A stretch of 63,287 nucleotides of DNA from Antarcticimicrobium luteum (lineage in GTDB: Bacteria; Pseudomonadota; Alphaproteobacteria; Rhodobacterales; Rhodobacteraceae). The position numbers and the translations under genes are program-made. The stretch lies in NCBI RefSeq assembly GCF_004358185.1, contig NZ_SMUV01000050.1:1-63287 (forward strand), in the 5' to 3' direction. How positions within the stretch are numbered: position 1 is the stretch's first letter; every line of letters begins with the position of its first letter. Below the pieces are notes generated by a model. That model ran no database searches, was not told where the DNA came from, and saw nothing but the letters and a program-made list of their open reading frames with translations. Positions 3 through 40,789 of the stretch are shown here, piece after piece.

Positions 3-1040
3 CCCACCGCCGCCCCGGCGCAGAGGATCGCGGCGCAGGCGGACCCGGCCCGCGCCCAGCCGGCAATGGCCTATGCGCAGCTGTCAGCCAGCCGGCCGCC
101 GGTGCAGGAAACGGCGGCGACCGCCGCCGCCACCGCCCGGGTTCAGCCCGCCGTCGCCCGCGCCGACGATCTCGGCGCTGTCGTCCCGGCGGCGCTGCCC
201 GCCGCGGCCGCCACGCCGCAGGCCGAGCATGTGACCGCCGCGCTGGCCTTTCAGGGCAGCGATGGCGAGATCGACCCGGCCTCGCTGGCCGCGTTCCAGA
301 GCTTCGTGCGTCCGGGAGATGCCGGCGCGCAGGCGCTGCGCGACGGCGTCGCCGGGCTGCTGGCCTCGGTGCCCTGCGGGCGGTTGCAGGTGGGGTTCGA
401 CCCGGACAGCGCCACGCTGCAGGTGAACGGCCACGTGCCCGAGGGCGACATGCGCGCGCCGGTCCTGGCCGCGCTGCGGACGCAGATGGGCGCCGACATC
501 GCTGTGTCGGACAACATCCTGATCCTGCCGCGCCCGCAATGCGGCGCGCTGACCGGCATCGCCGATGTCGGCCTGCCGCAATCCACCGACCAGATCACCA
601 ACCCGCTGCTGATCGGGGCGGGCACCCAGGCGCGCGTGTTTTCCTATGTCGCCGGCGATCCGCTGTCCTTTGATCTGACAGCACCCGACTACCCGGCCTG
701 GATCTATGTCGATTACTTCGACGCCGCCGGCGGCGTGCTGCACCTGGTGCCGAACGTCCACGTGCCGCTGCGCCGGTCGCAGGCGCAAAACGCGCTTCGG
801 ATCGGCGCGCAATCGGACTCGGACGAGGGGTTGCGCCTGCTGATCGGCCCGCCCTACGGGCAGGAAATCGCGGTCGCCTTCGCCGCCTCCGAGCCGCTCT
901 ACGACGGGCTGCGCCCGCTGACCGAACCGGCCGAACCCTATCTGGTCTGGCTCAAGGGCCGGGTCGCCGAGGCGCGCGCGCGGAGCCCCGACTTCAAGGG
1001 CGAATGGGTGTATTTCTTTGTGCGCACCTCGGAGAGATAG
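3..1040 (+). CDS. C-terminal part of a DUF4384-like protein (5' end outside window)
   Basis: The reading frame is open from base 3, so the first in-window ATG at 66 need not be the start, and the gene probably begins upstream of the window. The first 75 or so residues are a low-complexity Ala/Pro/Gln/Val-rich linker. It is followed by a compact region with the look of a BON-type module (roughly 65-155 after the ATG) and then a beta-rich C-terminal domain containing PDYPAWIYVDYFDAAG and LHLVPN. That domain resembles DUF4384, which in many bacteria is attached to caspase-like proteases or to serine/threonine kinases. No catalytic residues are visible in this part. It converges with the caspase-like gene, the two stop codons being only three bases apart. 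Domain assignment is by motif memory; what lies upstream cannot be seen. Confidence 0.7.
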   Translation, partial: PTAAPAQRIAAQADPARAQPAMAYAQLSASRPPVQETAATAAATARVQPAVARADDLGAVVPAALPAAAATPQAEHVTAALAFQGSDGEIDPASLAAFQSFVRPGDAGAQALRDGVAGLLASVPCGRLQVGFDPDSATLQVNGHVPEGDMRAPVLAALRTQMGADIAVSDNILILPRPQCGALTGIADVGLPQSTDQITNPLLIGAGTQARVFSYVAGDPLSFDLTAPDYPAWIYVDYFDAAGGVLHLVPNVHVPLRRSQAQNALRIGAQSDSDEGLRLLIGPPYGQEIAVAFAASEPLYDGLRPLTEPAEPYLVWLKGRVAEARARSPDFKGEWVYFFVRTSER

Positions 1041-1043
1041 CCC

Positions 1044-2531
1044 CTACTGGCATCCCCCCGCCGCCCAGCTCTTCATCGCGCGCTTCATCACCCCGCCGAA
1101 GGGGTGCATCTTGTCGAGCGAGCGATGGGTGGTGCTGGCATAGACCTGGGCCTGATCGCACAGCCGCTCTTTCGACCACTGGTGACAGCTCGCGCAGGTC
1201 TTGTCCTTCCAGTAGCTCTCGGGCAGCCCCTCCACCGGCGGAAACAGCGGGCTCATCCCGATCAGCTCGGCCATCGACTTGCCCGAGACCGCCGGATCGT
1301 CGGACAACAGCGGGCTGGCAAAGGTGACCGGCCCGGCCTCGGCCCCCGGCTCTGCCGGCGGCTCGGCCTCCCGCGCGGGCGGCTCGGGTGGCGGGCCGGC
1401 GGGATCGGTCGCGGCGCCCCGGTCCAGCGCGGCGATCTCCTGCGCGACGAACTCGGCATAGACGCTGTCCGGGAAACGGTCGAGAAAGGCGCGGTACTGC
1501 GCGGCGGAGCCGGCCTGCTGCGCCGCCGCCAGCTGCGTCTGCTCATCCGGGCTCGGCCCGCTGCGCGACGCCGACGGCGCGCTGTCCTTGCCGGTGGCCA
1601 GCTCGTACTCCATCACCGATTCCAGCAGCCGGCGCGCCTCGGCGGCATAGACGCTGTCGGGATAGGCGCGCAGGAACAGCATCAGCTGCACCGGATCGCC
1701 CGCCGCCTGAACGCTGCGCCAGACCTGAAGCTCCTCCAGCGTGTCCGAGGGCGCGGCCGCGGCGGAGAAAAAGAAATCGCTGGTCATCGACGAGGTGTCC
1801 CAGGGCGTCTGCTGACCGCCGGTCCGCTCCAGCACCGCGACGCGCACCTGCTTGAACAGCTGTTCGATCGGCTGGCCGGGCTGTTCCAGCGCCTCGGCCA
1901 GAGCCTGGGTAAACGGGCTGTTGCCCCCCGCCCCGTCCAGCGCCACGCCCCCCGGCTCGGTGGCATAGGCCAGAAAGGTGCCGGTGGGCGCCTGCATCTC
2001 GGCCAGCCCGTTGTCGTCAAACGCCGGCAGCGTCGAGAACGGGTTGTTGCGGCAGGCGTCGAGGATCACGATATTGGTGCGGTTGCGCGCCGAATACATC
2101 TGCCGCAGCACCGATTGCGCCTCGACCGCCACCAGATCCAGATCGGCCGGATCCGCCAGCGCCACGTCGACCGGCAACAGATAGTTGGTCCCGAAGCTCT
2201 GCACCCCGTGCCCGGCATAGTAGAACAGCCCGGTCGCCTCCTTGCCGGCCTCGCGCAATTCGCGTCCGAACTGGGCGATGCCGCGCTTCATGGCGATCTG
2301 GCTGGCATCGGAAATCAGCGTGACGTCGAAACCCAGCCGCTCCAGCGCCGTGGCGATCAGACGGGCGTCATTCACCGGATTTTCCAGTGCCGTGACAGTG
2401 CCATAGGCGGAGTTGCCGATGACCAGCGCCAGCCGTTCCTCGGCGGCGGCCCCCCGCACGACGCCCACCACCAGCACCATCAGGAGCAGCGCGCGGCGCA
2501 GGTGGCTGTTGAACCTGTTCTGCAAACTCAT
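1044..2531 (-). CDS. Secreted caspase-family (peptidase C14-like) protein with C-terminal CXXCH motif
   Basis: This is a 495-residue protein. Residues 1-30 form a signal peptide ending in GAAA, so the product should be exported. Residues about 32-260 form a caspase/metacaspase-like p20 domain with the catalytic dyad His108 (YYAGHG) and Cys160 (LDACRNNPF). The middle has two TPR/Sel1-like segments repeating a YPDSVYAAEA or FPDSVYAEFV pattern, then a Pro/Glu-rich linker. The last 60 residues contain CASCH (Cys446, Cys449, His450), a class I c-type heme attachment motif, followed by a possible axial Met in the sequence KMHPFGG. The start at 2531 was chosen because the signal peptide follows directly; an in-frame extension would run into the divergent yceI-ompA gene. 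The substrate is unknown. Heme binding is inferred from the motif only. Confidence 0.85.
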   Translation of the reverse strand: MSLQNRFNSHLRRALLLMVLVVGVVRGAAAEERLALVIGNSAYGTVTALENPVNDARLIATALERLGFDVTLISDASQIAMKRGIAQFGRELREAGKEATGLFYYAGHGVQSFGTNYLLPVDVALADPADLDLVAVEAQSVLRQMYSARNRTNIVILDACRNNPFSTLPAFDDNGLAEMQAPTGTFLAYATEPGGVALDGAGGNSPFTQALAEALEQPGQPIEQLFKQVRVAVLERTGGQQTPWDTSSMTSDFFFSAAAAPSDTLEELQVWRSVQAAGDPVQLMLFLRAYPDSVYAAEARRLLESVMEYELATGKDSAPSASRSGPSPDEQTQLAAAQQAGSAAQYRAFLDRFPDSVYAEFVAQEIAALDRGAATDPAGPPPEPPAREAEPPAEPGAEAGPVTFASPLLSDDPAVSGKSMAELIGMSPLFPPVEGLPESYWKDKTCASCHQWSKERLCDQAQVYASTTHRSLDKMHPFGGVMKRAMKSWAAGGCQ

Positions 2532-2684
2532 TCGGTGTTCCCGGTCCCGCCCGACCCCGGTCAAGGCCGACATGCCGCATCGCGTTCTGCAATGCATTGA
2601 AACTATCGCTTTTTTTCCCGCCCCGGGCAAGTTTGCTGATACTCTGATTTCGATGCAACGCCCAGCCCGCGAAAGGAGGATCGC

Positions 2685-3752
2685 ATGACGGTCTTGTCCC
2701 GCCTCTGCACCCTGATTTTCATCGTCCCGCTTCTGGTGCTGACCCCGGTGCTGACCCCGGTGCCGGGCGCACAGGCGCAGGAGACACAGCCCTTCGCCGG
2801 TGGCTGGCGGCTCGATCCCGCCGGGTCGGAGATTCGGTTCGTGTCGATCAAGAACGGCGATCTGGCCGAGGCCAGCCGCTTTGGCACGCTCAGCGGGCTG
2901 ATCACCGATCAGGGCAAGGCGCAGATCCGCGTGCTGCTCGATTCGGTCGATACCGGCATCGACCTGCGCAACGTGCGGCTGCGCTTCATGCTGTTCGAGA
3001 CCTTTCTGCACCCCGAGGCGATCATCACCACCCAGCTTGACTCTGCCCGGCTGCGCGACCTGCCGGCGGTGCGCAGCAAGCAGATCGACCTCAGCTATGC
3101 GCTGTCGCTGCACGGCATGACGCTGAGCAACACCGCGCGGGTTTCGGTCACCCTGCTGGACGAGGAGCGGGTCGAGGTGGCCTCGGTCGCGCCGATCCCG
3201 GTCTCGGCGATCAAATTCGGCATGGCGCAGGGAATCGCCGCGATGGAAAAGGCGGCCGCGGTGGCCGTCGTGCCGGTCGGAATCGTCAGTTTCACCCTTG
3301 TCTTCGACCGCGGCGCAGCCGAAGCGCCGGAGGCGGCGCCGCAGCCCCAGAGCGCCGCAACCACGGCCGCCCCCTCCGGCACCGGGCCGGCCGGCTGCGC
3401 CGAACGGCTGGTCGAGGCGTCGCGCGCCGGCGGCATCCATTTCGCCCCCGGCAGCGCCCGGCTCAGCGGCAACAGCGCCGCCGCGCTCGACCGGGTGGCC
3501 GAGATCGCCCGCGCCTGCGGCGGCCTGCGCATCCTGGTTGCCGGGCACACCGATTCCGATGGCGCCGCCGAGGCCAACCTGCGGCTCAGCCGGGCGCGCG
3601 CCGAGGCGGTGGCGGCGGCGCTGGCCATGCGCGGCATCGACCGGGCGCGGCTGCAGGCGCAGGGTTTTGGCGAAACCGAACCGCTGGTTCCCAACGACAG
3701 CGCCGCCAGCAAGGCGCGCAACCGGCGGATCGCATTCTCGGTGGCGGACTGA
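2685..3752 (+). CDS. YceI-like/OmpA C-terminal fusion protein
   Basis: This 355-residue protein has a signal peptide (residues 1-32, ending AQA). A YceI-like lipocalin-type beta domain follows (about 37-205; WRLDPAGSEI, then LSLHGMTL). An Ala/Pro-rich linker leads to an OmpA-like peptidoglycan-binding domain (about 245-355) with HTDSDG, LSRARAEAV and the terminal NRRIAFSV. The protein should sit in the periplasm or outer membrane and grip peptidoglycan through the OmpA domain, while the YceI domain is of a type that binds isoprenoid or other amphiphilic ligands. An excellent Shine-Dalgarno (AAAGGAGG) precedes the ATG at 2685. It is transcribed divergently from the caspase-like gene and lies 127 bases upstream of the giant repeat protein, so co-expression with either is plausible. 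Confidence 0.85.
   Translation: MTVLSRLCTLIFIVPLLVLTPVLTPVPGAQAQETQPFAGGWRLDPAGSEIRFVSIKNGDLAEASRFGTLSGLITDQGKAQIRVLLDSVDTGIDLRNVRLRFMLFETFLHPEAIITTQLDSARLRDLPAVRSKQIDLSYALSLHGMTLSNTARVSVTLLDEERVEVASVAPIPVSAIKFGMAQGIAAMEKAAAVAVVPVGIVSFTLVFDRGAAEAPEAAPQPQSAATTAAPSGTGPAGCAERLVEASRAGGIHFAPGSARLSGNSAAALDRVAEIARACGGLRILVAGHTDSDGAAEANLRLSRARAEAVAAALAMRGIDRARLQAQGFGETEPLVPNDSAASKARNRRIAFSVAD
2736..2759. repeat. 12-bp direct duplication inside the yceI-ompA signal-peptide region
   Basis: The 12-mer GTGCTGACCCCG occurs twice in perfect tandem and encodes two LTPV-type units in the hydrophobic signal segment. It preserves the frame and looks like a recent slippage duplication. No function is inferred. 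Confidence 0.8.
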
Positions 3753-3879
3753 CCGCCGGGCGCACCCGGCGCTTGCCCCGAATCACCGGTCCGGGTCACT
3801 CTGCGTCAACACATTGTTTGATTACCGTTTCCACTTTCGCCGGATTGCCCGGCGGACATTGTTTTTGGAGCCCGCGCCG

Positions 3880-6800
3880 ATGCCCGACGGCCTGACCCCT
3901 GCGCAGATCGAATTCATCAACACCTATATCCGCATGCCCAAGCGCATGGGCAAGAAAAAGGCCCGCAAGCGGCGCGAGGCGGCGGCGCGCGAATTCGGCG
4001 CCTTCAACGTGCGCCACGACGTGGTCGAAGAGCGTATTCTGCAAATCGAGGATGCCGGCATCCGCGCCGGCCTGCTGGCCGATCTCGCCCGCGCCGCGCA
4101 GATCGTGGAGGCGAACCCGAAGAAGCCCGATTTCGACGGCGGGCTGGCGCATCTCGATCAGGTCAACACCACCGCCTGGATCCGCCTGCAACAGCAGGAG
4201 GCGGGCAAGAAATACGATGCCGTGCGCGACCGGGTGGAGGCCATGCTCGCCTCGCTCAGGGACGGGCCCGATGTAATGGCCTTTGACAATCAGGACGACA
4301 TCATCCTGGTCTGGGAGTTTGCGCAGGAGAAATTCAACAGCGGGCTGGAGACGGATTCGCTCAAGGATCTGGGCGGCGCCGTCAAGGCGCTGGACCGGCT
4401 GTCGGGGCTGCTCGACAGCGCCGACACCGTCAATCCGTTCGAGCTGCGCGCCGAGGTTCTGGCCGAGGTCCGCGAAAGCGCCGAGGAGGGGCTGGCGGAA
4501 ACCGTGCAGGCGGCGCGCCGCGAGCTGACCGAGATCTCCAACGCGCAGCTGCAACTGCGCGACCGGGCCACGCGGGCCTTTGGCGCCGCCGCGATCCCCG
4601 ATGACATCGAGGCGCTGCTGGACCGGGTCGACCGGCGGCTGGACGCGGCGGGCGCGGTCGGCGCCGCCGAACTGCCGGCCCGCGCCGCCGTGGCCCGCAC
4701 CGCCTTTGACGCCGCCGAGGCCGCCGTCGAAGGCCGCGCCGACGACAAGACCGCCTGGCAGGATCTTGAACGCCGCTTCCTGCGCAGCTGGGACATGATC
4801 ACCGGCCATGCGCATAAGGACGAGCCGACCTATGTGAAGCCGAAATTCGATCCCATCGCCGCCGCCTACACGACCGCGCAGGACAAGGTCGCGCGCGGCG
4901 ATTTCGCCGGGGCAAGCGCCGATCTGCAACCGCATCTGGCAAACGCCGCGACCCTGCTGGACATCGCCGACGACTACGGCCGTTTCCTCGTGATGGAGGC
5001 CAGCCGGCAGGCCATGCTGGACGCCCTGCCTGCCCCCGGGGGCTTTGCCGGGGTGCCGCAGATCAAGACCGCCATCGAGGCGGCGCTGACCCTGATGGAC
5101 GAGGCGAAGGCGGCCCGCGACGGCGAGGACATGGCCGAGGCGGTGCGCAAGCTCGACGCGATCCCGGCGGCGGTCGGGGCCTATGACCGCCTGCGGGTGG
5201 CGCTGAAGAATTTCAACAGCAACCTCGAGGCGGTCGACGCCAAGATTACCGATTATGACGCGATGGACGCGGCGGTGACCGACAAGGTCGCGGACGAGAT
5301 CGACCTGATGCGCGACACCCTGCAAGAGGCAGAAGATCTGGTCGTGGCCGGCGACCTGCTGGGCGGCTCGCACAGGCTCAAGGGCCTGCGCGGGCATTTC
5401 AAGGCGCTCGACAGGACCATCGCGCACATCACCGAGTTCAACACCGAATACCCGCTGTTCACCGCGCGCCGCCGCGAAACCAGGACGCGGCGCGGCGCCG
5501 GCGGGCGGGTGGCGATCGAGGAATATTACCAGCGCCTCAGGGACGACGACGCGCGCATCAAGGATTACACCACCGGCACCGACAAGGATTTCGGCCTCGC
5601 CCTGGCTGCGGCCATCGCGCTCAAGGACAAACATGCCGCGATGATGGCGCTGGCCGATCAGGCGCAGGACTATCTCCAGCGGCGCGGGGCGCTGAACACC
5701 GAAATTGCCCGCCTGCAGGGCGGCGCAGCCGGCGGCGAACAGGCCGCCGAGGCCATCGCCACCGCACGCCAGACCATGGCCAACGCCCAGGCGGCGACAC
5801 AGTCGGGCGACTGGGGCGGCGCGGTGCGGCTGCTACAACACGCGGCCATGGAGCTCGAACAGGGCACCCGCGCCGCCGACATCGCCGACCGGATCGACGG
5901 GATGCAGGACACGGACAAGCTGGACGGTATCGCCGGCGATTTCGACGCCGCCTTGGGCGAGTTTCAGAAGATCGCGCGCGCCGTCGCGGGACTGGACACC
6001 GACAATGTGTTCGACGACCTGCTGGACCAGGCCGCGCAGACCGCGGAATCCGGCCGCGCCCATTTGGCCGCCGCCGCGCCCGATGCCGCCGCCGCCCGCC
6101 AGTGCATCGAACAGGCAATCGCCGCCTGCAAACAGGTGGCGACGAAGATCACCCTGAAAAACCTGTTCCAGCGCAAGGTGGAACAGGCCGAACGCGACCG
6201 CGACATCGTCAAGGACGGGAACGTTGGCAAAAGCCTCGATCCCGAACTGAACGAGATCAAGGCCCGGCTGCGCGCCGCCGGCCGACTGGCGACCGACCGG
6301 GACCATTCCGGCGCGCTGGACGAGCTGACCGAGGCGAACAGGCAGATCGGCATCGCGGTGCAGGTGCGCGATGTCTATGAAACCCTCTACAAACCGGCCC
6401 GCGACGATTTCAAATACGTGCTGAAAAAGCTGCGCAAGTCCGACGTCCAGCCCGGCCTGGGCGACGAGATCGCGCGGCTCGACCGGATCGGCACCGACAT
6501 GGAGGCGGCGCTGACGGCCCGCGACACCGCCCGCATCAGGGCGCTGGCCAAGGAGGGCAACGGCCTGTTGCAGCCCTATCTGGACCTGGCCGAGAACTAC
6601 AAAATCGCCACCAAATCGTACAAGGCCCGCTATACCAAAACCGGCGCGAAGAATTTGAATCACCCCGCGCTCGCCGGTCAGATCGCGCGCCTGCACGAGA
6701 TCATCGAGGGCGTCGACCGGTTGATGGCGCAGCACGCCTATCGCGCCGCCTATCTGCAGATCGAGCGGACCGCCTATCTGATCGACCGGGTGGTCAAGGC

Positions 6801-9000
6801 GATCGCCGATTACCCCGCCTATGCCGCCGCGAAGGACAAGGCCGATCCCGCGATCCGGTCGCTGCTGGACCGCGACGACGCGGCGATGGGTCCGACCCAT
6901 GACCGCATCGCCGAGCTGAAGGCCCGCTATGACGCCGCGCTCAAGGACGCCGGGATGGACCAATTCGCAGGCGCGCTGCGCAAGCTCGACGGATTTGTCG
7001 GCGCCTGCGACGCCATCGAGGATCAGGTCGACCGGTTCGAACGCTACGCCCTTGCGCGCGAGGCCGGACTGGCCGCGCTGCAACAGATCGCCAGCCGCGA
7101 CACCGCCCCGATCGCACCGCTGTTCGCCCGGCTTGAGGGCAAGCGCGACAACGCGCTGGCAAAGGCGGCGGCGTTCGATTTTCCCATGGCCACCACGCTG
7201 TTTCAGGAACTGGTTTCGGACTGCGCCACCGCCGCCGCAACGCTGGATGAGCAGACCGCCTTTGGTGAGGTGCTGGATGCGATCAAGGCGGTCGGAAGCG
7301 ATGACACCGACGATCTGAAGATGTCGATCAAGGCCGCCGACGCCACCTTCAAACAGCTGCGCGGCCGCCCCTCGGCGATGTACGTCAAGGCCCTGCTGGA
7401 CACGGTGCAGACCGCGTTGCAGGAGGCCCGCGACAAGGTCGGGGACGACTTCGAGACCGCCCGCACCAGGGTCGGCGAGGCCATCGATCACTGCCGCGGC
7501 ATCGCCTCGGAGATGGGGCAGTTCGATCAGCTATGCGATGCCGCCGACCTAGCGCGCGGGCTGGCCGCGAGCCTGGCGCAGCATCCCGAATACGCCTCCG
7601 GGCGCGCCGCGACCGAGACCGAGCTGGCGCGGGTGGAGACGGCGATGGCCGAGGCCCGGCGCGATCGCGCCCGGCGCGGCGTCAGCACCGACACGGTCGA
7701 GCAGGCGATCGCGGCCCTGCGCGCCCTGCGCAGCGAACTGGACGCCCATGCCGTCTATGTGGCCGAACGCAACCAGATCCGGTTCGCCCTGAACGGCCGT
7801 CTGGAAAAGCACCGCGACCGGTACCTGATGAAAACCGACATCGCGCTGATCCACAGCGCGCTGGACGAGGCCGAGACCAAGGCAACCGCCAAGGATTACA
7901 AGGGCGCATCGGCCGAGCTGAACAAGGCCCGCGCGCAGATCCCGGCAGCCGAGCTGCGGCTCAAGCTGGCCGCCAACGAGGTGCCTGCCCCCGAGGATAT
8001 CCGCGCCTTTCTGGGCGATGCGGAGAGCACAAAGGCGCTCGACCGGATCATCAAGACGCTGGAGCCCGACATTCAGCGCAAGGTCATCGCGGTGGCGTTC
8101 AAGGAACGGTTCGGCTGCGATCTGACACTGTCGAACAAGCGCTGGGTTCCCGATGGCAGCGGCGGCTTCGAAAAGGAGATCACCGAGGACACCGACCTCG
8201 ACCGCGATGCCCCCAACCTGCGCCGGTTCTACGACCTGATGGCCGCCCTGCCGGGCAGCGATACGCTGGACAACGACAGTTTCCTGTCCTTCTCGCATCG
8301 CGGCGGGGTGCAGGACGGCTCGTATTTCAATTTTGTCGAAAAGGTTGTCGCCATGCACGAGGGCGAGGCCAAGACCAGCGCCATCTACGGCATCAGCCAG
8401 GAGGCCGAGCTGGGTCCGCAGGACGATCTGTACAAGACCAAGGAGGACGAGCCGGTCAGCTTTTTCAACTGGAACACCCTGCATGAGGTGGCCCATGCGG
8501 TCGACGACAAGATGGGCTTCATGACCCGGCATCTGGGCGAGGACAGCGACACCTATGGCGGCTGGCGCCATCACCGCGCCGACGTGGGGCCGGTGGCCGC
8601 CGCGGTGGCCGGCAAGTTCGACTTCGACCCCGCCTATGTCGCCGAATACATGATCATGGGCGAAGGCTCCTCTCCGCCGGTGCCCGAGCCGCGCGACTGC
8701 GACGCCGAGGAATGGGACCGGCGGCGGCGCGATTGCGAGATCTGGGTCGACCGGGCGCGCGAGGGCAACGCGCCCTGGAAGACCAAGGTTTCGGCCGACG
8801 CCTGCACCATCGGCAACCGCGCCTATCACGAGGCGATGAAGGGCGACTGGGTCAGCTACCTGGCCTCGGCCCGGGCCAAGGGGGTGACCGGATACCAGTT
8901 CCGCGCCCCCGCCGAATGGTTCTCGGAGCTTTACGCTGCCTTCCACAGCGGCAAGCTCAAGGACAATCACCCCGCCGTCGCCTGGCTGGAAGACCTCTGA
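3880..9000 (+). CDS. Giant helical-repeat protein with C-terminal HExxH metallopeptidase-like domain
   Basis: This is a 1706-residue protein without a signal peptide or membrane segment. The start at 3880 is preceded by GGAG at 3867-3870; a longer in-frame reading upstream overlaps the ompA gene and has no SD. The N-terminus is short and basic (MGKKKARKRR). From about residue 80 to 1365 the protein is almost wholly alpha-helical and built of loose units of roughly 80-110 residues, each marked by a turn such as RGDFAGASADL, SGDWGGAVRLL or AKDYKGASAEL, resembling spectrin- or TPR-like stacking. The C-terminal 250 residues hold His1535-Glu-Val-Ala-His1539 and, downstream, Glu1679 and Glu1683 in EWFSELYAAF. 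This is the layout of a zinc metallopeptidase in which a later Glu acts as third ligand, as in several toxin peptidases. Enzyme activity and target are inference. The CpXC gene follows 21 bases later. Confidence 0.8.
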   Translation: MPDGLTPAQIEFINTYIRMPKRMGKKKARKRREAAAREFGAFNVRHDVVEERILQIEDAGIRAGLLADLARAAQIVEANPKKPDFDGGLAHLDQVNTTAWIRLQQQEAGKKYDAVRDRVEAMLASLRDGPDVMAFDNQDDIILVWEFAQEKFNSGLETDSLKDLGGAVKALDRLSGLLDSADTVNPFELRAEVLAEVRESAEEGLAETVQAARRELTEISNAQLQLRDRATRAFGAAAIPDDIEALLDRVDRRLDAAGAVGAAELPARAAVARTAFDAAEAAVEGRADDKTAWQDLERRFLRSWDMITGHAHKDEPTYVKPKFDPIAAAYTTAQDKVARGDFAGASADLQPHLANAATLLDIADDYGRFLVMEASRQAMLDALPAPGGFAGVPQIKTAIEAALTLMDEAKAARDGEDMAEAVRKLDAIPAAVGAYDRLRVALKNFNSNLEAVDAKITDYDAMDAAVTDKVADEIDLMRDTLQEAEDLVVAGDLLGGSHRLKGLRGHFKALDRTIAHITEFNTEYPLFTARRRETRTRRGAGGRVAIEEYYQRLRDDDARIKDYTTGTDKDFGLALAAAIALKDKHAAMMALADQAQDYLQRRGALNTEIARLQGGAAGGEQAAEAIATARQTMANAQAATQSGDWGGAVRLLQHAAMELEQGTRAADIADRIDGMQDTDKLDGIAGDFDAALGEFQKIARAVAGLDTDNVFDDLLDQAAQTAESGRAHLAAAAPDAAAARQCIEQAIAACKQVATKITLKNLFQRKVEQAERDRDIVKDGNVGKSLDPELNEIKARLRAAGRLATDRDHSGALDELTEANRQIGIAVQVRDVYETLYKPARDDFKYVLKKLRKSDVQPGLGDEIARLDRIGTDMEAALTARDTARIRALAKEGNGLLQPYLDLAENYKIATKSYKARYTKTGAKNLNHPALAGQIARLHEIIEGVDRLMAQHAYRAAYLQIERTAYLIDRVVKAIADYPAYAAAKDKADPAIRSLLDRDDAAMGPTHDRIAELKARYDAALKDAGMDQFAGALRKLDGFVGACDAIEDQVDRFERYALAREAGLAALQQIASRDTAPIAPLFARLEGKRDNALAKAAAFDFPMATTLFQELVSDCATAAATLDEQTAFGEVLDAIKAVGSDDTDDLKMSIKAADATFKQLRGRPSAMYVKALLDTVQTALQEARDKVGDDFETARTRVGEAIDHCRGIASEMGQFDQLCDAADLARGLAASLAQHPEYASGRAATETELARVETAMAEARRDRARRGVSTDTVEQAIAALRALRSELDAHAVYVAERNQIRFALNGRLEKHRDRYLMKTDIALIHSALDEAETKATAKDYKGASAELNKARAQIPAAELRLKLAANEVPAPEDIRAFLGDAESTKALDRIIKTLEPDIQRKVIAVAFKERFGCDLTLSNKRWVPDGSGGFEKEITEDTDLDRDAPNLRRFYDLMAALPGSDTLDNDSFLSFSHRGGVQDGSYFNFVEKVVAMHEGEAKTSAIYGISQEAELGPQDDLYKTKEDEPVSFFNWNTLHEVAHAVDDKMGFMTRHLGEDSDTYGGWRHHRADVGPVAAAVAGKFDFDPAYVAEYMIMGEGSSPPVPEPRDCDAEEWDRRRRDCEIWVDRAREGNAPWKTKVSADACTIGNRAYHEAMKGDWVSYLASARAKGVTGYQFRAPAEWFSELYAAFHSGKLKDNHPAVAWLEDL

Positions 9001-9021
9001 TCCCCGAAAGGACCGCCTGCC

Positions 9022-9723
9022 ATGTCCCTGTTCAGATCCACCGTCATCGCCTGCCCGTCCTGCGGCGCGGACATCCCGTTCGAGGAATGCGACAGCGTCA
9101 ACGCCGACCGCCGGCCCGACCTGCGCGAGGCGATCCTGGAGGGCAGCTTTCAGAGCCTGCCCTGTCCCGGCTGCGGCGAGACCGTGCGGATGGAGCCGCA
9201 GTTCAATTACCTCGAGGTCGGCGCCGGGCTGTGGATCGCGGTGTTTCCCGGCCGGATGATGCCCGATTACATCGCGGTCGAGGATGCGATCACCGAGGTG
9301 TTCGAAACCTCCTACGGCGCCCGCGCCCTGCCCTCGGCGCGCGAGATCGGCGCCGGGCTCGACGTGCGGCTGGTGTTCGGCTGGCCGGCGCTGACGGAAA
9401 AGCTGGTGCTGCGCGCGGCCGGGCTGGACGATGTCACCGTCGAACTGCTCAAGCTCGACCTGATGCGGCGGCTGCCTGAGGCCGACATGGGCCCGGGCCG
9501 CGAATTGCGGGTGACCTCGGTCGAGCAGGACGCCCTGAATTTCGTCTGGATCCTGACCGAGCGGGAGGTGCCGATGGACGGCTTCGCCGCCCACCGCGCG
9601 CTCTATGACGCCATCGAAGAGGCGCCCGGTGCATGGGCACCGATCCGCGCGCAGCTGACGGACGGCCCGTTTGCCGACATGCAGAAACTCTTCATCGGCG
9701 AGGGGCGCGCCGCCGCCGAATGA
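9022..9723 (+). CDS. CpXC-domain zinc-ribbon protein
   Basis: This is a 233-residue cytosolic protein. Cys11-Pro-Ser-Cys14 and Cys48-Pro-Gly-Cys51 form the two CpXC knuckles that define the CpXC domain, a putative zinc-binding family without assigned function. Residues about 55-230 are a mixed alpha/beta region with no motif I recognise. The ATG is preceded by GAAAGGA, and the gene starts 21 bases after the giant metallopeptidase-like gene, so the two are almost certainly co-transcribed. The pairing suggests a partner, chaperone or regulator of the giant protein, which is inference. It converges with the DUF1285 gene with a gap of only 7 bases. Confidence 0.75.
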   Translation: MSLFRSTVIACPSCGADIPFEECDSVNADRRPDLREAILEGSFQSLPCPGCGETVRMEPQFNYLEVGAGLWIAVFPGRMMPDYIAVEDAITEVFETSYGARALPSAREIGAGLDVRLVFGWPALTEKLVLRAAGLDDVTVELLKLDLMRRLPEADMGPGRELRVTSVEQDALNFVWILTEREVPMDGFAAHRALYDAIEEAPGAWAPIRAQLTDGPFADMQKLFIGEGRAAAE

Positions 9724-9730
9724 GGCCCGC

Positions 9731-10330
9731 TCAGGCGGCGTCGAGCTCGGCCGAGGGGATCACCGGAAAGAACGCGCCCTGCGACCACAGCCCGAACCAG
9801 CCGTCGTGATGGACGCCCAGATCGACCAGCCGGTAAAAGCTCTTGCGGTCGATCAGCGCCTCGAGGTTGGCGCGGATCAGGACATAGGGCGACGGCTCGC
9901 CCGTCTCTGGATCGCGCTCCACCCTGATCGGGTGATCGGGGCCGGCCACCGCCCGGTCGCCCACATGGGTGACGAAGGTCAGGATCTGTGCCCGCTCCTC
10001 GCCCTCCGCCTCGAAATCGACGGCGACAAAGGGGGCATCATCGACGGTGATTCCAACCTTTTCCACCGGCGTGACCAGAAAGTATTTCCCGTCCTCCTTC
10101 CTGAGAATCGAGGAAAACAGTTTCACCAGTTCCGGCCGCCCGATCGGTGTGCCGAGATAGAACCAGGTGCCATCGCGGGCGATGCGCATGTCCAGATCGC
10201 CGCAAAACGGCGGGTTCCACAGATGCACCGGCGGCAATCCGCGCGTTTTGCCGGCGCGCACCGCGCTGGCTATGCCCTCGGCCGAAGGTGTCACAGGTTT
10301 TTGTCCGCTCATCTGTTTTGCCATTTCCAT
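9731..10330 (-). CDS. DUF1285 family protein
   Basis: This 199-residue soluble protein matches the proteobacterial DUF1285 pattern: PPVHLWNPPFCGDLDMRI early, GTWFYLGTPIGR in the middle, LVRLFS-type and YFLVTPVEK segments, and a late SPYVLIRANLEALI motif. The family's function is not established. Starts at 10330, 10324 or 10312 are all possible; I chose the first. It is divergent from moxR across about 46 bases, so the promoters must overlap or lie back to back. Confidence 0.8.
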   Translation of the reverse strand: MEMAKQMSGQKPVTPSAEGIASAVRAGKTRGLPPVHLWNPPFCGDLDMRIARDGTWFYLGTPIGRPELVKLFSSILRKEDGKYFLVTPVEKVGITVDDAPFVAVDFEAEGEERAQILTFVTHVGDRAVAGPDHPIRVERDPETGEPSPYVLIRANLEALIDRKSFYRLVDLGVHHDGWFGLWSQGAFFPVIPSAELDAA

Positions 10331-10376
10331 TCCGCACTATAGTCTTATCAAACATATGGCCCATGAAAGGAATGTC

Positions 10377-11380
<1,004 letters not shown>

Positions 11381-11384
<4 letters not shown>

Positions 11385-12262
11385 CATCCCCCTCCGCCCC
11401 AACACTGCGCGAACGCGCCGAGGCGGAGGCCGCGCGGCTGCCGCCGCTGCTGGCGCGGGCCGACCATCTGGCCGGCACCGTCCTTTTGGGCGAACACGGC
11501 CGGCGCCGCGCCGGGCTGGGGGACGATTTCTGGCAATACCGGCCGGCGCAACCGGGCGACAGCCGGCGGATGATCGACCACCGCCGCTCCGCCCGGGGCG
11601 ATCAGCAGTTCGTGCGCGAACGGGAATGGCAGATCGCGCAATCGGTGATGCTCTGGGTCGATCAGGGCGCCTCGATGCGGTTTACCTCGCACGACCGATT
11701 GCCGACCAAGGCCGACCGCGCGCGGCTGCTGGGGCTGGCGCTGGCGATCCTGCTGGTACAGGGGGGCGAGCGGGTCGGGCTGACCGGCAGCGCGCTGCCG
11801 CCCCGGCGCGGCCGCAACCAGATCCTGCGCCTGGCCGAGGCGTTGGGCGTTGACGCGCCCGAGGACTACGCCCCGCCCGAGCATCGGGCGATGATCCCCC
11901 ATGCCCGCGCCGTGTTCCTGTCCGATTTCCTCGGCGATCTGCATGAGGTCGAGCGGGCGCTGACCAAGGCCGCCGATCGCGGCGTGCGCGGCGTGCTCTT
12001 TCAAGTGCTCGACCCCAGCGAGGAAAGCTTTCCGTTCCAGGGCCGCACGATCTTCGAGAGCGTCGGCGGCACCCTGCGCCATGAGACGCTGAAGGCAGGC
12101 GAATTGCGCGACCGCTACAGGGCGCGGCTGGCGGCGCGGCGCGACCGGCTGGCGGCGCTGTGCCGCGCGACCGGCTGGCGGTTGGGCCTGCACCACACCC
12201 AAGACAGCGCGCAATCGGCGCTGCTCTGGCTCTACCGCGCGCTCGATGGAGGCACCTCGTGA
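11381..12262 (+). CDS. DUF58 domain-containing protein
   Basis: This 293-residue protein belongs to the DUF58 family, which has a degenerate von Willebrand A fold. The family motif is visible as RPAQPGDSRRMIDHRRSARG, with VMLWVDQGASM marking the VWA-like strand. There is no transmembrane segment. DUF58 proteins are the usual partner of MoxR ATPases. It starts with GTG at 11381 inside a GTGA overlap with moxR and ends in a second GTGA overlap with the DUF4159 gene, so all of these are co-translated. Confidence 0.9.
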
Positions 12263-15045
12263 CCGTGCTGGGCGGCATCGGCTTTACCGCGCCCTGGTTG
12301 CTGCTGGGGCTGCTCGCGCTGCCGATCCTCTGGCTGATCCTGCGCGCGATCCCGCCGGCACCGGTGCGGCGGCGGTTTCCCGGCGTCGCGTTGCTGCTGG
12401 GGCTGAAGGACGACGACAGCATCTCGGACCGCACGCCCTGGTGGCTGCTGGCGCTGCGGATGCTGGCGCTGGCGGCGCTGATCGTCGGGCTGGCCGGCCC
12501 GGTGCTGAACCCGCAACAGGACCGGGCCGGTCGCGGTCCGTTGCTGATCGTGCTGGATGCCAGCTGGGCCGGCGCGCCGCGCTGGACCGCGCGGCTGGAG
12601 CTTCTCGACGCGCAGCTTGCCGAGGCCGGGCGCGGTGGCCGGCCGGTGGCGCTGCTGGCGCTGACCGCGCCCGAGCCGCTGAATTTCCAGTCGGCGGACA
12701 TCTGGCGCAGCCGGCTGCCCGGACTTGCCCCCGCGCCCTGGCAGCCGACCGCGGCACAGCTTGAGGTAGCCCGCGCGGCGGTCGAGGAGGGCGGCGCGGG
12801 CGGCTTTGATACCCTCTGGCTCGGCGACGGGCTGGCCTATCCGGACCGCGCGCCGCTGCTCGGGGCCCTGCGCGCCAGGGGCGATCTGCGGGTGGTCGAG
12901 ACCGGCCAGCCGGTGCTGGGCATCGGCCCCGCCGGGTTCAAGGATGGCGCCGTGCAGCTGACGCTGCACCGCTCCGACGTGGGCCCCGCGCGCGAGGTGA
13001 CGGTGCTGGCGCAGGGCCACGATCCAGCCGGCACCGCCCGGGTGCTGGCCAGCCTGCCGGCCCGGTTCGAGCCGGGCGCGACCGAGGCCAGCGCCGCCCT
13101 GTCGCTGCCGGCCGAGCTGCGGGCGCGGATCACCCGGTTCGAGATTCAGGGACAGCGGTCGGCCGGGGCGATGACGCTGGCCGACGACCGGCTGCGGCGG
13201 CGCGAGGTGGCGCTGATCGCCGGGCGCGAGGACCGTGAGGGGCTGGAGCTGCTGTCGCCGCTGCATTACCTCAAACAGGCGCTGGCGCCGAGTGCCGATC
13301 TGCTCGAAGGCGCGCTTTTGGATCTGATCCCCGCAAACCCGGATGTGATCGTGATGGCCGATGTCGCCACCCTGTCGCAGGCCGAGCAGGCGGCGCTGAC
13401 CGGCTGGGTGGAAAAGGGCGGCATGCTGCTGCGCTTTGCCGGCCCGCATCTGGCCGCCAGCGATGTCAGCCGCACCGAGGAGGATCCGCTGATGCCGGTG
13501 CGGCTGCGCAGCGGCGGCCGCACCGTCGGCGGCGCGATGAGCTGGGGCGCGCCCAAGGCGCTGGCCGCCTTCCCCCCCGACACCCCCTTTGCCGGGCTGC
13601 CGATCCCCGAGGATGTGAATGTGAGCGCGCAGGTCATGGCCCAGCCCGACCCGGTGCTGGCCGAGCGGGTGATCGCCGCGCTGGGCGACGGCACGCCGCT
13701 GGTGACCCGCAAGGCGCTGGGTCAGGGGCAGGTGGTGCTGTTTCATGTCACCGCCAACGCCGAATGGTCGACACTGCCGCTTTCCGGTCTCTTCGTGCAG
13801 ATGCTGGAGCGGCTGGCGGTGTCCTCATCGGCCAAACCGCCGCAGGCGGGCGATCTGGCCGGCACCACCTGGCGGCCGGTGCAGGTGATGGACGGGTTCG
13901 GTACCCTGCACGACGCCGGCAACCTGCCCGGGGTCGCCGGCGAGGCGCTGGCCGGGGCGCCGCCCGGCCCCGACCTGCGTCCGGGCATCTATGACGACGG
14001 CGAGCGGCGGCTGGCGCGCAACGTGCTGGGCCCGGAGGCGGTGTTGACGCCGGTGCAGTGGCCCGAGGGGGTGCCGGTGGAGACCCTGACCCGCACGCCG
14101 GAGCGGCCCTTGGGCGGGCCGCTGCTGGCGCTGGCGCTGCTGCTGCTGGTGGCCGATGTGATCGCGGCGCTGGCGCTGGGCGGGCGGCTGATGCCGTCGC
14201 GCGGGCGCATCGCCGCCCTCGGTGCCGCGCTGTGTCTGGCCGGCCTGCCCGGCCATCCGGTCGGGGCCCAGGATTCCGATGCGGACCAGACCGCCTTTGC
14301 CCTCGCCGCCACCCACGAGCTGACCCTCGCCCATGTGCTGACCGGCAACGCCGAGCTGGACGACATCGCCCGGGCCGGGCTGCGCGGGCTGTCCGACACG
14401 CTCAGTTTCCGCACCTCGGTCGAGCCGGCACCGCCGATGGGCGTCGATCTGGAACGCGACGAGCTGGCCTTCTTTCCGATCCTCTACTGGCCGGTGACGC
14501 CGGAACAGCCGCGCCCCTCGGATGCGGCCTATGCCAAGCTCAACGCCTATCTGCGGTCCGGGGGCATGATCCTGTTCGACACCCGCGACGCCAATATCGC
14601 CAGCTTCGGCGCCGCCAGCCCCAATGGCCGCAAGCTGCAGGAACTGGCCGCCCCGCTCGACATCCCGCCGCTGGAGCCGGTGCCGCGCGACCACGTGCTG
14701 ACGCGGGCCTTCTACCTGTTGCAGGATTTCCCCGGCCGTCATGCCGAGGGCCGGATCTGGGTCGAGGCCGCCCCACCCGATGCCGAACAGATCGAGGGGA
14801 TGCCGTTCCGCAACCTCAACGACGGGGTGACGCCGGTGGTGATCGGTGGCAACGACTGGGCCGGGGCCTGGGCGGTGGACCGTGACGGGCGGCCGCTGCT
14901 GCCGGTCGGGCGCGGGTTCACCGGCGAGCGGCAGCGCGAACTGGCGCTGCGGTTTGGCGTCAACCTGATCATGCATGTGCTGACCGGCAACTACAAATCC
15001 GACCAGGTGCATGTGCCCGCACTTCTCGACAGGCTGGGACAATGA
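12259..15045 (+). CDS. BatA-like/DUF4159 membrane protein
   Basis: This 928-residue protein starts with GTG at 12259, overlapping the DUF58 stop, with GGAGG at 12247-12251. The N-terminus is an aerotolerance-regulator (BatA-type) segment with two membrane helices (residues about 5-30 and 60-80, the latter being LLALRMLALAALIVGLAGPV). A large periplasmic VWA-like and amidotransferase-like region follows, then a third helix near 650 and a C-terminal DUF4159 domain (about 690-910) containing FFPILYWPVT, YLRSGGMILFDTRD and GVNLIMHVLTGNYK. Proteins of this architecture accompany MoxR/DUF58 pairs and are thought to be the membrane client of the ATPase. The next gene starts in a 4-base overlap. Confidence 0.85.
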   Translation: MTVLGGIGFTAPWLLLGLLALPILWLILRAIPPAPVRRRFPGVALLLGLKDDDSISDRTPWWLLALRMLALAALIVGLAGPVLNPQQDRAGRGPLLIVLDASWAGAPRWTARLELLDAQLAEAGRGGRPVALLALTAPEPLNFQSADIWRSRLPGLAPAPWQPTAAQLEVARAAVEEGGAGGFDTLWLGDGLAYPDRAPLLGALRARGDLRVVETGQPVLGIGPAGFKDGAVQLTLHRSDVGPAREVTVLAQGHDPAGTARVLASLPARFEPGATEASAALSLPAELRARITRFEIQGQRSAGAMTLADDRLRRREVALIAGREDREGLELLSPLHYLKQALAPSADLLEGALLDLIPANPDVIVMADVATLSQAEQAALTGWVEKGGMLLRFAGPHLAASDVSRTEEDPLMPVRLRSGGRTVGGAMSWGAPKALAAFPPDTPFAGLPIPEDVNVSAQVMAQPDPVLAERVIAALGDGTPLVTRKALGQGQVVLFHVTANAEWSTLPLSGLFVQMLERLAVSSSAKPPQAGDLAGTTWRPVQVMDGFGTLHDAGNLPGVAGEALAGAPPGPDLRPGIYDDGERRLARNVLGPEAVLTPVQWPEGVPVETLTRTPERPLGGPLLALALLLLVADVIAALALGGRLMPSRGRIAALGAALCLAGLPGHPVGAQDSDADQTAFALAATHELTLAHVLTGNAELDDIARAGLRGLSDTLSFRTSVEPAPPMGVDLERDELAFFPILYWPVTPEQPRPSDAAYAKLNAYLRSGGMILFDTRDANIASFGAASPNGRKLQELAAPLDIPPLEPVPRDHVLTRAFYLLQDFPGRHAEGRIWVEAAPPDAEQIEGMPFRNLNDGVTPVVIGGNDWAGAWAVDRDGRPLLPVGRGFTGERQRELALRFGVNLIMHVLTGNYKSDQVHVPALLDRLGQ

Positions 15046-17084
15046 CCGGAACCATCGTCTTCGACCCGCTGATCCCCTGGCCGGTGCTGGCGGTGCTGGC
15101 GGCACTGTCGCTGGCGGCGGTTGCGTTGGCGCTCTGGCGCGGCCTGACGGGCTGGGCGCTGCGGCTGCTGGCCGCCGTGGTGATCGCCGGTGCGCTGAGC
15201 GGGCCCGGCTATCAGCTCGAGGATCGCGCGCCGCTCACCGATATCGTGCTGATGCTCGAAGATGAAAGCGCCAGCCAGTCCCTCTCGGACCGGCCCGATC
15301 AGCTGAGCGCGGCGGCCGAGGCGCTGGCCGCGCAGCTTTCGGCGCGGCCCAATACAGACCTGCGCCGGGTGCGGGTGCCCGACGGCGCGGGCGATGCCGG
15401 CACCGAACTGATGACAGCGCTTTCCACCGCTCTGGCCGAAGAGCCGCGCGGGCGTATCGCCGGGATCATCGCGCTGTCGGACGGGCGTGTGCATGACATC
15501 GAGCGCGCGCCGGAGCTGCCGGCGCCGCTGCACCTGCTGCTGACCGGGCGCGCGGAGGACTGGGATCGCCGCCTGACCGTGCGCAACGCCCCCGCCTTTG
15601 CCATCATCGGCGAGCCGGTGACGCTGACGCTGAGGATCGAGGACAGCGGCGCGGCACCGCGCGCGGCGGCCAGCGCGCCGCTGGACATCTCGGTCGACGG
15701 CGCCCCGCCCGAACGGTTCGAGCTGCCGATCGGGCGGGACATCGAGCTGCCCGTCACCCTGCCCCATGGCGGGCGCAACGTGATCCGGTTCTCGGTGCCC
15801 GAGGCGGCGGGCGAGCTGACCGACCGCAACAACAGCGCGCTGATCCAGATGAACGGGGTGCGCGACCGGCTGCGGGTGCTGCTGGTCTCGGGCGAGCCGC
15901 ATGCGGGCGGGCGCACCTGGCGCAACCTGCTGAAATCGGACTCATCCGTCGATCTGGTGCATTTCACCATCCTGCGGCCGCCGGAGAAACAGGACGGCGT
16001 GCCGGTGGACGAGCTGTCGCTGATCGCCTTTCCGACGCGCGAGCTGTTTCTGGAAAAGATCGACGATTTCGACCTGATCATCTTCGACCGCTATCAGCGG
16101 CGCGGCATCCTGCCGGCGATCTACCTCGACAACGTGGCCAATTACGTGACCGGCGGCGGCGCGGTGCTGGTCGCGGCGGGGCCGGACTTCGCCACCGCCG
16201 ACAGCATCTATCGCTCGCCGCTTGCCCCGGTTGTGCCGGCGCGGCCCACCGCCCGGGTGATCGAAGAGCGCTATCGCCCCGAGGTGACCGACCTGGGCGC
16301 GCGCCACCCCGTCACCGCCGATCTCGGCGACAGCGATCGCTGGGGATCGTGGCTGCGCCAGATCGAGGTTACGCCGGAGGCCGGCGACGTGGTGATGACC
16401 GGATATGAGGGCAAGCCGCTGCTGATCCTCGACCGCGTCGGCGAGGGGCGGGTGGCGCTGCTGGCCTCGGATCACGCCTGGCTGTGGAGCCGGGGATATG
16501 ATGGCGGCGGCCCGCAGCTGGAGCTGCTGCGACGGCTGGCCCACTGGATGATGAAAGAGCCGGAACTGGAGGAAGAGGCGCTCTGGGCCGAGGCGACCGG
16601 GCAGTCGATGCGCATCATCCGCCGCACGCTGGGCGAGGCGGTCGGACCGGTGACGGTGACACGCCCCGACGGCAGCACGGAAGACATCGACCTCAGCGAG
16701 GTATCCCCAGGCCGGTTCGAGGCGCGCTATGAGGGGCCCGAGATCGGGCTTTACCGGCTGGTGGAGGGCGAGCAGCACGCGGTGATCGGATTGGGCCCGG
16801 CGGCGCCAAAGGAGTTCGAGCAGACCATCGCCACCGGCGCGGTGATGGAACCGGTGATCGCGCCGCTGAGGGGCGGAATCCTGCGGCTGGAGGACGGGCT
16901 GCCGCGCCTGCGCGAGGTGCGCGAGGGCCGCCCGGCGGCCGGGCGCGGCTGGATCGGCCTGACCCCACGCGGGGCCTATGAGACCCGGGACGTGCGGCAG
17001 TCGCCGCTGTTGCCGGCCTGGCTGGTGCTGCTGCTGGCCTCGGGGCTGATCCTGGCCGGGTGGTTGCGGGAGGGGCGGCGGTAG
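15042..17084 (+). CDS. Membrane protein of MoxR/DUF4159 operon (glutamine-amidotransferase-like fold)
   Basis: This 680-residue protein is the last gene of the moxR operon; its ATG lies in an ATGA overlap with the DUF4159 stop. Two helices at the N-terminus (about 12-32 and 38-55) and one at the C-terminus (LLPAWLVLLLASGLILAGWL) bracket a large periplasmic part. Within it, LIIFDRYQRRGILPAIYLDN and GGGAVLVAAGPDFA look like the Rossmann-type core of class I amidotransferase-like domains found in such BatA/VWA neighbours. The catalytic Cys-His-Glu triad is not evident, so it is probably structural. It is a common unnamed companion of DUF4159 genes. Confidence 0.75.
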   Translation: MTGTIVFDPLIPWPVLAVLAALSLAAVALALWRGLTGWALRLLAAVVIAGALSGPGYQLEDRAPLTDIVLMLEDESASQSLSDRPDQLSAAAEALAAQLSARPNTDLRRVRVPDGAGDAGTELMTALSTALAEEPRGRIAGIIALSDGRVHDIERAPELPAPLHLLLTGRAEDWDRRLTVRNAPAFAIIGEPVTLTLRIEDSGAAPRAAASAPLDISVDGAPPERFELPIGRDIELPVTLPHGGRNVIRFSVPEAAGELTDRNNSALIQMNGVRDRLRVLLVSGEPHAGGRTWRNLLKSDSSVDLVHFTILRPPEKQDGVPVDELSLIAFPTRELFLEKIDDFDLIIFDRYQRRGILPAIYLDNVANYVTGGGAVLVAAGPDFATADSIYRSPLAPVVPARPTARVIEERYRPEVTDLGARHPVTADLGDSDRWGSWLRQIEVTPEAGDVVMTGYEGKPLLILDRVGEGRVALLASDHAWLWSRGYDGGGPQLELLRRLAHWMMKEPELEEEALWAEATGQSMRIIRRTLGEAVGPVTVTRPDGSTEDIDLSEVSPGRFEARYEGPEIGLYRLVEGEQHAVIGLGPAAPKEFEQTIATGAVMEPVIAPLRGGILRLEDGLPRLREVREGRPAAGRGWIGLTPRGAYETRDVRQSPLLPAWLVLLLASGLILAGWLREGRR

Positions 17085-40787: not shown

Positions 40788-40789
40788 TG

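Follow-up and report, generated by a model that had tools for sequence, protein, structure and literature searches.

RIX is a short N-terminal domain that, in the passages of its description considered here, defines polymorphic cargo of the type VI secretion system (T6SS) and is also found in stand-alone adaptors (PMC10435454). It has 55 residues, is rich in arginine, belongs to Vibrionaceae and Moritellaceae and is not encoded in T6SS clusters; the same passages list RIX effectors with M34 peptidase domains or domains like that of anthrax lethal factor (LF) as anti-eukaryotic and without an immunity gene (PMC10435454). Here we describe a locus at the 5' end of contig NZ_SMUV01000050.1 of Antarcticimicrobium luteum (assembly GCF_004358185.1; 63,287 nucleotides, analysed as a whole and referred to as the window), in which the gene for a 1706-residue protein, termed the giant, is followed by a gene for a protein with a CpXC domain. 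We hypothesise that the giant is a T6SS-delivered metallopeptidase effector and CpXC its cognate immunity protein, encoded at the edge of a T6SS locus, and regard this as fairly probable.

According to the relevant passages of its description, VgrG2b of Pseudomonas aeruginosa, which has an immunity protein, is a metallopeptidase delivered by the T6SS, as is predicted for the giant; by that description it is also fused to a VgrG spike and acts in the periplasm, whereas the giant is a separate cargo-like protein (PMC6899460). With Tox-ALF and anthrax LF the giant shares an HExxH motif, a downstream Tyr and Glu and the same predicted fold. In the part of the literature on Tox-ALF considered, this domain is linked to export by Photorhabdus virulence cassettes and the type II secretion system, with Imm-SuFu, whereas the giant is found in T6SS genomes and has a long spacer and a CpXC partner (PMC3482391). 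PPEP-2 (PDB 6fpc) is a 186-residue chain, whereas the corresponding domain of the giant ends a protein of 1706 residues. In gene order the locus is like the T6SS loci of Leisingera, which in the RefSeq annotation run OmpA family protein, caspase, DUF4384, ExbD, ExbD, ExbB, two hypothetical proteins and tssA to tssM. The Leisingera T6SS are located on plasmids, and the passages that describe them mention neither the accessory module treated below nor effectors of this kind (PMC4337385). Among the open-access papers listed, taken by title and start of abstract and with subscription papers mostly and preprints wholly outside it, the giant and CpXC pair, the accessory module and the type-B domain introduced below are not described, and CpXC is not linked to type VI secretion in titles or listings.

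The giant and its C-terminal peptidase domain

The window is the entire contig C25 of its genome (G000), which is in 74 contigs. An initial annotation had placed five genes together at its 5' end, and these are indeed adjacent and of the families named: genes 1 to 3 and CpXC (gene 5) have Pfam matches, and the giant (gene 4), read from the ATG at 3880, contains HExxH (Table 1). All five open reading frames (ORFs) are present and are not chance ORFs, as many genomes have homologues of the giant and CpXC, and homologues of the DUF4384, caspase and YceI-OmpA genes (genes 1 to 3) are found in T6SS loci. Gene order, linkage, co-distribution, predicted fold, conserved catalytic residues and T6SS context were computed, drawing on a sample of 196 genomes of the order, a phylum-wide draw of 299 genomes and 80 giant homologue loci, which are the best 80 of 109 relatives from a scan of genome contigs.

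Queried from codon 2, the giant gave nothing better than E 0.08 in Pfam, and with the limits applied it had no match to NCBIfam, PADLOC or PHROGs. Its layout is a variable N-terminus, a helical spacer and a C-terminal zinc peptidase, and the closest relatives of its last 399 residues in named genomes are from Antarcticimicrobium, with 91 and 84% identity. When the peptidase domain of the window was aligned with those of 42 of the 80 loci (alignment A5, 43 rows), HExxH and the downstream Tyr and Glu were invariant in every row; by analogy with LF-like peptidases, we take the Glu to be the third zinc ligand and the Tyr to be catalytic. A profile search against anthrax LF placed HExxH and the Glu in register (E 0.3), and the predicted model of the domain resembles the catalytic domains of anthrax LF and PPEP-2, so that the protease-like character initially assigned to the giant is upheld. 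The giant of the window has no match to Pfam ATLF, and a Streptomyces homologue scores 18.3 bits, below the gathering score of 27.4; as this score is not reached, we do not file the giant as a member of ATLF and describe it as alike in fold only. Fold and conserved residues together support the prediction of a C-terminal toxic enzyme domain.

Linkage of the giant and CpXC

CpXC is the next gene on the same strand in 79 of the 80 giant loci, with some of its frames truncated at contig ends; the one other locus, L096, is on a contig that stops where the frame of the giant does. Across the order sample the giant and CpXC are present in the same eight of 196 genomes and nowhere else, which together with their adjacency bears out the earlier suggestion that CpXC is the partner of the giant. 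The 21-bp gap between the two genes in the window contains a Shine-Dalgarno-like GAAAGGA. CpXC scores 78.9 bits against Pfam PF14353 (cut-off 25.4), shows no visible export signal and has four Cys (CxxC) that are invariant in an alignment of the window with 40 of the 80 loci (A4, 41 rows). Its model (window 9022-9720) is confident, with a predicted local distance difference test score (pLDDT) of 94.9; the predicted fold has no convincing match among solved structures and therefore gives no functional hint.

The 80 loci come from Rhodobacterales, other Alphaproteobacteria, Burkholderiales and Planctomycetota, and the phylum-wide draw gave a match in one genome of 299, the window's own, so that the pair can be described as widespread but rare. 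A plasmid search returned seven records for the giant and, for CpXC, six of the same records, in which CpXC lies directly downstream by coordinates; in the two annotated records examined, the giant is a hypothetical protein and the pair stands without genes 1 to 3. Genes 4 and 5 are a separate two-gene cassette. The seventh plasmid match is a 406-residue protein of Streptomyces anulatus with the peptidase domain (L016:13032-14249) and without an adjoining CpXC. It has a HINT polymorphic toxin and a casA gene as neighbours, and its short N-terminus resembles, in our impression, the cargo of injection systems.

The type VI secretion context

The whole locus of Seohaeicola saemankumensis begins with CpXC, giant, YceI-OmpA, caspase, TonB-like/DUF4384, ExbD, ExbD, ExbB, a small protein and a type-B protein, continues with TssA, TssB, TssC, Hcp, a TagJ-like protein, TssE, TssF, TssG, TssH and an ion channel, and ends with a TssB-linker-TssC fusion, VgrG, a 209-residue protein, an FHA protein, TssK, TssL and TssM. 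Homologues of this T6SS locus are found in G000 on contig C51 and at the end of contig C16, where Pfam or NCBIfam named ExbB, both ExbD, the channel, TssA, Hcp, VgrG, FHA, TssE, TssF, TssG, TssH, TssK, TssL, TssM and both edge pieces of the TssB-linker-TssC frame; the small protein, the type-B protein and the TagJ-like protein had no match in either database. From this synteny we conclude that the window is the tail of a single T6SS locus whose parts are on three contigs, a context in line with the initial view that the genes are not a housekeeping cluster. The giant is linked to the T6SS by synteny in the window's clade and directly in Sulfitobacter, Roseovarius and Roseateles, the pair in Sulfitobacter standing beside TonB-like/DUF4384, ExbD, ExbD, ExbB, the type-B protein, TssA, TssB, TssC and Hcp.

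TssC (PF05943) was found in 56 of the 196 order genomes, comprising 8 of the 8 that bear the giant and 48 of the 188 others (Fisher p 3e-5). A second, divergent TssC in a long frame is present in all 8 giant genomes and in 18 genomes in total (Fisher p 9e-10), and we refer to these 18 as a T6SS subtype, defined post hoc by a second TssC that scores 140-169 bits and lies in an open frame of more than 600 aa. Left out of the subtype were G019, G053, G082, G015 and G114, which have shorter frames, and G034, G167 and G192, in which the second TssC is strong. When giant-bearing genomes were surveyed (41 of the 80 loci and G000), TssC was found in 38 of 42.

In genome G198 (L106-L108, G198:C10:86410-90588) a single frame holds a TssB domain, a long Asp/Ala-rich repetitive linker (DDLDDLLGDL) and the divergent TssC, and it adjoins normal TssB and TssC genes. 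In G000, C51:2-1054 and the end of C16 are the two ends of a TssB-linker-TssC frame at contig edges. Judging from its domains, this protein is a second sheath-like fusion.

The position of the giant in or beside the T6SS locus in the window's clade, Sulfitobacter, Roseovarius and Roseateles, and its large spacer without a known delivery domain, would also suit an accessory or regulatory part of the T6SS (a scaffold, ruler or maturation protease) that works inside the producer and is not delivered. We consider this very improbable: only 8 of the 18 subtype genomes have the giant, it is encoded with CpXC in Leisingera NJS204 on a different plasmid from the T6SS, and its N-termini are exchanged and its copy number varies.

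For the giant as a delivered effector, what we infer about secretion, toxicity, target and immunity can be put as follows. The window would be the 3' tail of a T6SS locus and genes 4 and 5 an effector cassette inserted at the edge of the accessory module. The N-terminal region would load the giant onto the T6SS, possibly aided by the stand-alone type-B protein of the same locus, and the giant would be delivered into a neighbouring cell, where its C-terminal zinc peptidase, of the LF/PPEP fold, would cleave a cytosolic protein of the recipient. CpXC would stay in the cytosol of the producer and most likely neutralise the peptidase domain.

N-terminal types of the giant and the type-B domain

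Profiles of our own divide 81 giants into 22 with a type-A N-terminus, to which the window belongs, 30 with a type-B N-terminus and 29 with neither, some of these being truncated. Type A is present in 4 of the 196 order genomes, one of them weakly; it is, like the type-B N-terminus, a new candidate for a delivery domain. In G169 (L151/L184, G169:C28:425398-425715) a weak type-A match with an in-frame stop lies just after a type-B ORF and is possibly a decayed giant.

Type B is a region of approximately 115 residues to which Pfam gave no convincing match in the proteins that carry it. It was detected in 14 of the 196 order genomes, 13 of which have the T6SS subtype; after the match in G127 was dropped (E 6.3e-4, two internal stops, no TssC) all 13 of 13 have it (p 1e-16). 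A single genome has up to six matches, of which two may share a frame, and the frames range from 122 to 1953 residues and have unrelated C-termini. The C-termini of five such ORFs (L152, L158, L159, L160 and L162) look toxin-like by eye; they gave no convincing match to Pfam or, where tried, to a solved structure. Of the 18 subtype genomes, 12 have a stand-alone type-B protein next to TssA, and Roseovarius 217 (G224) has one at a neighbouring place; in G000 one is on C51 and a second copy on C52. At least one type-B protein is present in all 10 type-A genomes surveyed.

Type B is thus found fused in some giants and separate beside others, which fits a delivery domain that also acts as an adaptor, like RIX, and we regard it as a candidate for either role. 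As with RIX, type B heads polymorphic proteins and occurs alone, and LF-like and M34 peptidases are among the listed RIX effectors. It is set apart from RIX, as that domain is described in the passages cited above, by its length, by its distribution in Rhodobacterales and beyond and by the copy beside TssA in many loci.

Genes 1 to 3 as a T6SS accessory module

Gene 1 lacks its 5' part because the contig start cuts through it, and scores 27.5 bits against Pfam DUF4384 (cut-off 27). G198 has an intact homologue of 543 aa 3' of ExbB/ExbD, and its N-terminus, read by eye, is a TonB-like membrane segment and not the kinase that the initial annotation had envisaged in the upstream part of the gene. 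Contig C51 of G000 ends with ExbB, ExbD, ExbD and a 46-bit match to gene 1. The caspase (133.6 bits against Pfam Peptidase_C14) most likely spans 2531 down to 1044 on the minus strand, its start having been read by eye. Its His (GHG), Cys (DACR) and C-terminal CxxCH are all present, and GHG, DACR and the CxxCH...GG/DC tail are kept in 11 of 11 T6SS-linked caspases examined, that of the window included. Gene 3 scores 35.8 bits against YceI and 76 bits against OmpA in Pfam.

On inspection of all 18 subtype genomes, DUF4384, caspase and YceI-OmpA were found together on the TssA side in nine; nine of the 18, G000 among them, and also G224 have a strong YceI-OmpA match adjoining the caspase. The nine with all three are G000, five genomes with the giant on another contig (G038, G097, G145, G162 and G181) and three without a giant (G195, G180 and G078, the last with the final two module genes in reverse order); Roseovarius 217, outside the order sample, also has the three genes. 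In Sulfitobacter (G036 and G186) ExbB to DUF4384 is kept and the giant and CpXC pair occupies the place of the caspase and YceI-OmpA, and G076 has only ExbB to DUF4384. There was no ExbB-to-DUF4384 match on the TssA side in G042, G064, G066, G073, G153 and G169; the sole caspase there in G064 and G153 is a more distant one (171-172 bits). The same module order, with tss names, is seen on Leisingera NJS204 plasmid NZ_CP035419.1 (RefSeq), where TagF, PP2C and a Ser/Thr kinase stand at the far end of the T6SS locus. Genes 1 to 3 with ExbB-ExbD-ExbD are a conserved envelope accessory module of the T6SS, separate from the giant.

The initial annotation had instead read the five genes as one protease-centred system with an envelope-stress, cell-death or defence function. 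All five families do stand together in 5 of the 80 loci (L026, L028, L077, L078 and L098), including Pseudosulfitobacter and Roseovarius, and four in L027, where DUF4384 was undetected; the co-occurrence beyond close relatives that had been looked for is therefore found, although the module and the pair also occur apart. More distant caspases, of other branches (164-205 bits), lie near the giant in L029, L049, L075, L077, L078 and L101, and related caspases are common on plasmids without a T6SS or giant setting, so that proximity of a caspase is by itself little proof. The single system, to which we give hardly any credence, is contradicted by the genomes above that have genes 1 to 3 in a T6SS locus with no giant or with the giant elsewhere, and the T6SS genes account for the neighbourhood. 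As for defence, no PADLOC model matched the giant, CpXC or the DUF4384 protein; the caspase scored 48.7 bits to one caspase model and YceI-OmpA matched ZorB models only, through its OmpA part.

A second, more distant caspase lies beyond CpXC in L077:11837-13765, L078:12190-14097, L049:12003-13946 and L075:4608-6413, and two long proteins that look exported come after it in L049, L077 and L078.

Table 1. Coordinates in the window of the accessory module, the giant and its parts, and CpXC
Feature	Position	Strand	Basis
C-terminal part of TonB-like/DUF4384 protein, T6SS accessory module; 5' part off contig	3..1040	+	Pfam DUF4384
Caspase C14 with C-terminal CxxCH module, exported by eye; T6SS accessory module	1044..2531	-	Pfam C14 1.2e-38
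YceI-OmpA envelope protein, T6SS accessory module	2685..3752	+	Pfam YceI + OmpA
Giant, 1706 aa, predicted T6SS cargo with C-terminal metallopeptidase	3880..9000	+	Homologues in T6SS genomes
Type-A N-terminal region of giant, GLTxxQxxFIxxFL	3880..4269	+	Own profile
Metallopeptidase domain: HExxH 8482-8496, invariant Tyr 8893-8895, invariant Glu 8926-8928	8053..8997	+	
CpXC partner, 233 aa, four invariant Cys (9052-9063 and 9163-9174)	9022..9723	+	Pfam CpXC

The genes 3' of the cassette (window 9731-17084) include DUF1285 and MoxR with neighbouring genes. DUF1285 is retained also in L026-L028, so this segment appears to be chromosomal sequence flanking the T6SS locus. Further along, window 35343-43385 (+) encodes a bacterial alpha-2-macroglobulin, a protease trap that here has a PAN domain, and after it a PBP1C-like transglycosylase/transpeptidase.

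Proposed delivery of the giant and role of CpXC

A number of observations weigh against the reading of giant and CpXC as T6SS effector and immunity protein, and they concern delivery, the type-B domain and CpXC itself. No known delivery domain was found in the giant with Pfam, NCBIfam or PHROGs, the MIX and RIX models not having been run by name, and Foldseek alone gave no PDB match at E <= 0.001. A T6SS core gene lies within the fetched flanks of only 9 of the 80 loci, and the four of 42 giant-bearing genomes without a TssC match are three metagenome-assembled genomes and one draft isolate genome. One giant of the 81, in L098, lacks HExxH. It (L098:8129-11074) has a type-B N-terminus, a CpXC gene 3' and a C-terminal region without the motif, and may be a natural, inactive variant.

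With regard to type B, genomes with the fused form retain the stand-alone copy too, so the separate protein may simply be a part of the T6SS. Type B was not detected in 12 of 34 giant-bearing genomes (34 of the 80 loci surveyed), namely eight Burkholderiales, two Planctomycetota, Siccirubricoccus and one uncultured proteobacterium, and a type-B mechanism therefore cannot be general for the giant family. In G214 and G218 type B is present and TssC had no match.

Conservation is higher in CpXC than in the peptidase (mean column identity 51% vs 31%; mean tree distance 1.75 vs 2.18), and the 188 giant-less order genomes contain no orphan copy of CpXC. Such high conservation and lack of orphan copies are unusual for immunity proteins. 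One possibility, which we consider rather unlikely, is that the giant is a T6SS effector, perhaps an anti-eukaryotic one, and CpXC a dedicated chaperone or adaptor of its peptidase domain, serving to fold it, load it with zinc or hold it inactive until delivery. The conservation of CpXC with its four invariant Cys and the missing orphans would be consistent with this, as would the LF-like and M34 RIX effectors, listed as anti-eukaryotic without an immunity gene in the passages cited at the outset. However, CpXC tracks the C-terminal peptidase across all N-terminal types, as immunity genes do, and the Streptomyces homologue lacks an adjoining CpXC. Chaperones of T6SS cargo mostly act on N-terminal regions, which also counts against such a role. 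No CpXC match was found among 18 stretches around other type-B ORFs. Divergence of the peptidase and of CpXC is correlated (r 0.87, 0 of 300 shuffles; 74 of the 80 loci, the window and CpXC frames of unusual length being left out), although kinship is uncontrolled and species phylogeny may contribute. Given the downstream position, the tracking through N-terminal types, the correlated divergence and the Streptomyces homologue without CpXC, we favour immunity over chaperoning as the most likely role of CpXC.

Implications

Taken jointly, the observations suggest, tentatively, a T6SS subtype, found in Rhodobacterales and in some other bacteria, that is recognised by an additional, divergent TssC in a long frame and often has its own ExbB/ExbD/TonB-like, caspase and YceI-OmpA module. 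In this possible arrangement type B would be the delivery domain, either fused at the N-terminal end of polymorphic effectors or as a stand-alone adaptor beside TssA, the giant would be cargo and CpXC would be a new immunity family. The type-B domain and the accessory module are more novel parts of this than the pair of effector and partner.

The loose idea of a five-gene system is replaced by two separable modules. If the proposal is correct, the CpXC domain family would gain a functional setting, and a protease of the LF fold with a dedicated partner would join the cargo of the T6SS. A T6SS with an ExbB/ExbD/TonB-like unit and an exported caspase would make a use of proton-motive force or proteolytic control testable, and type B would provide a sequence handle for finding the effectors of marine and freshwater bacteria.

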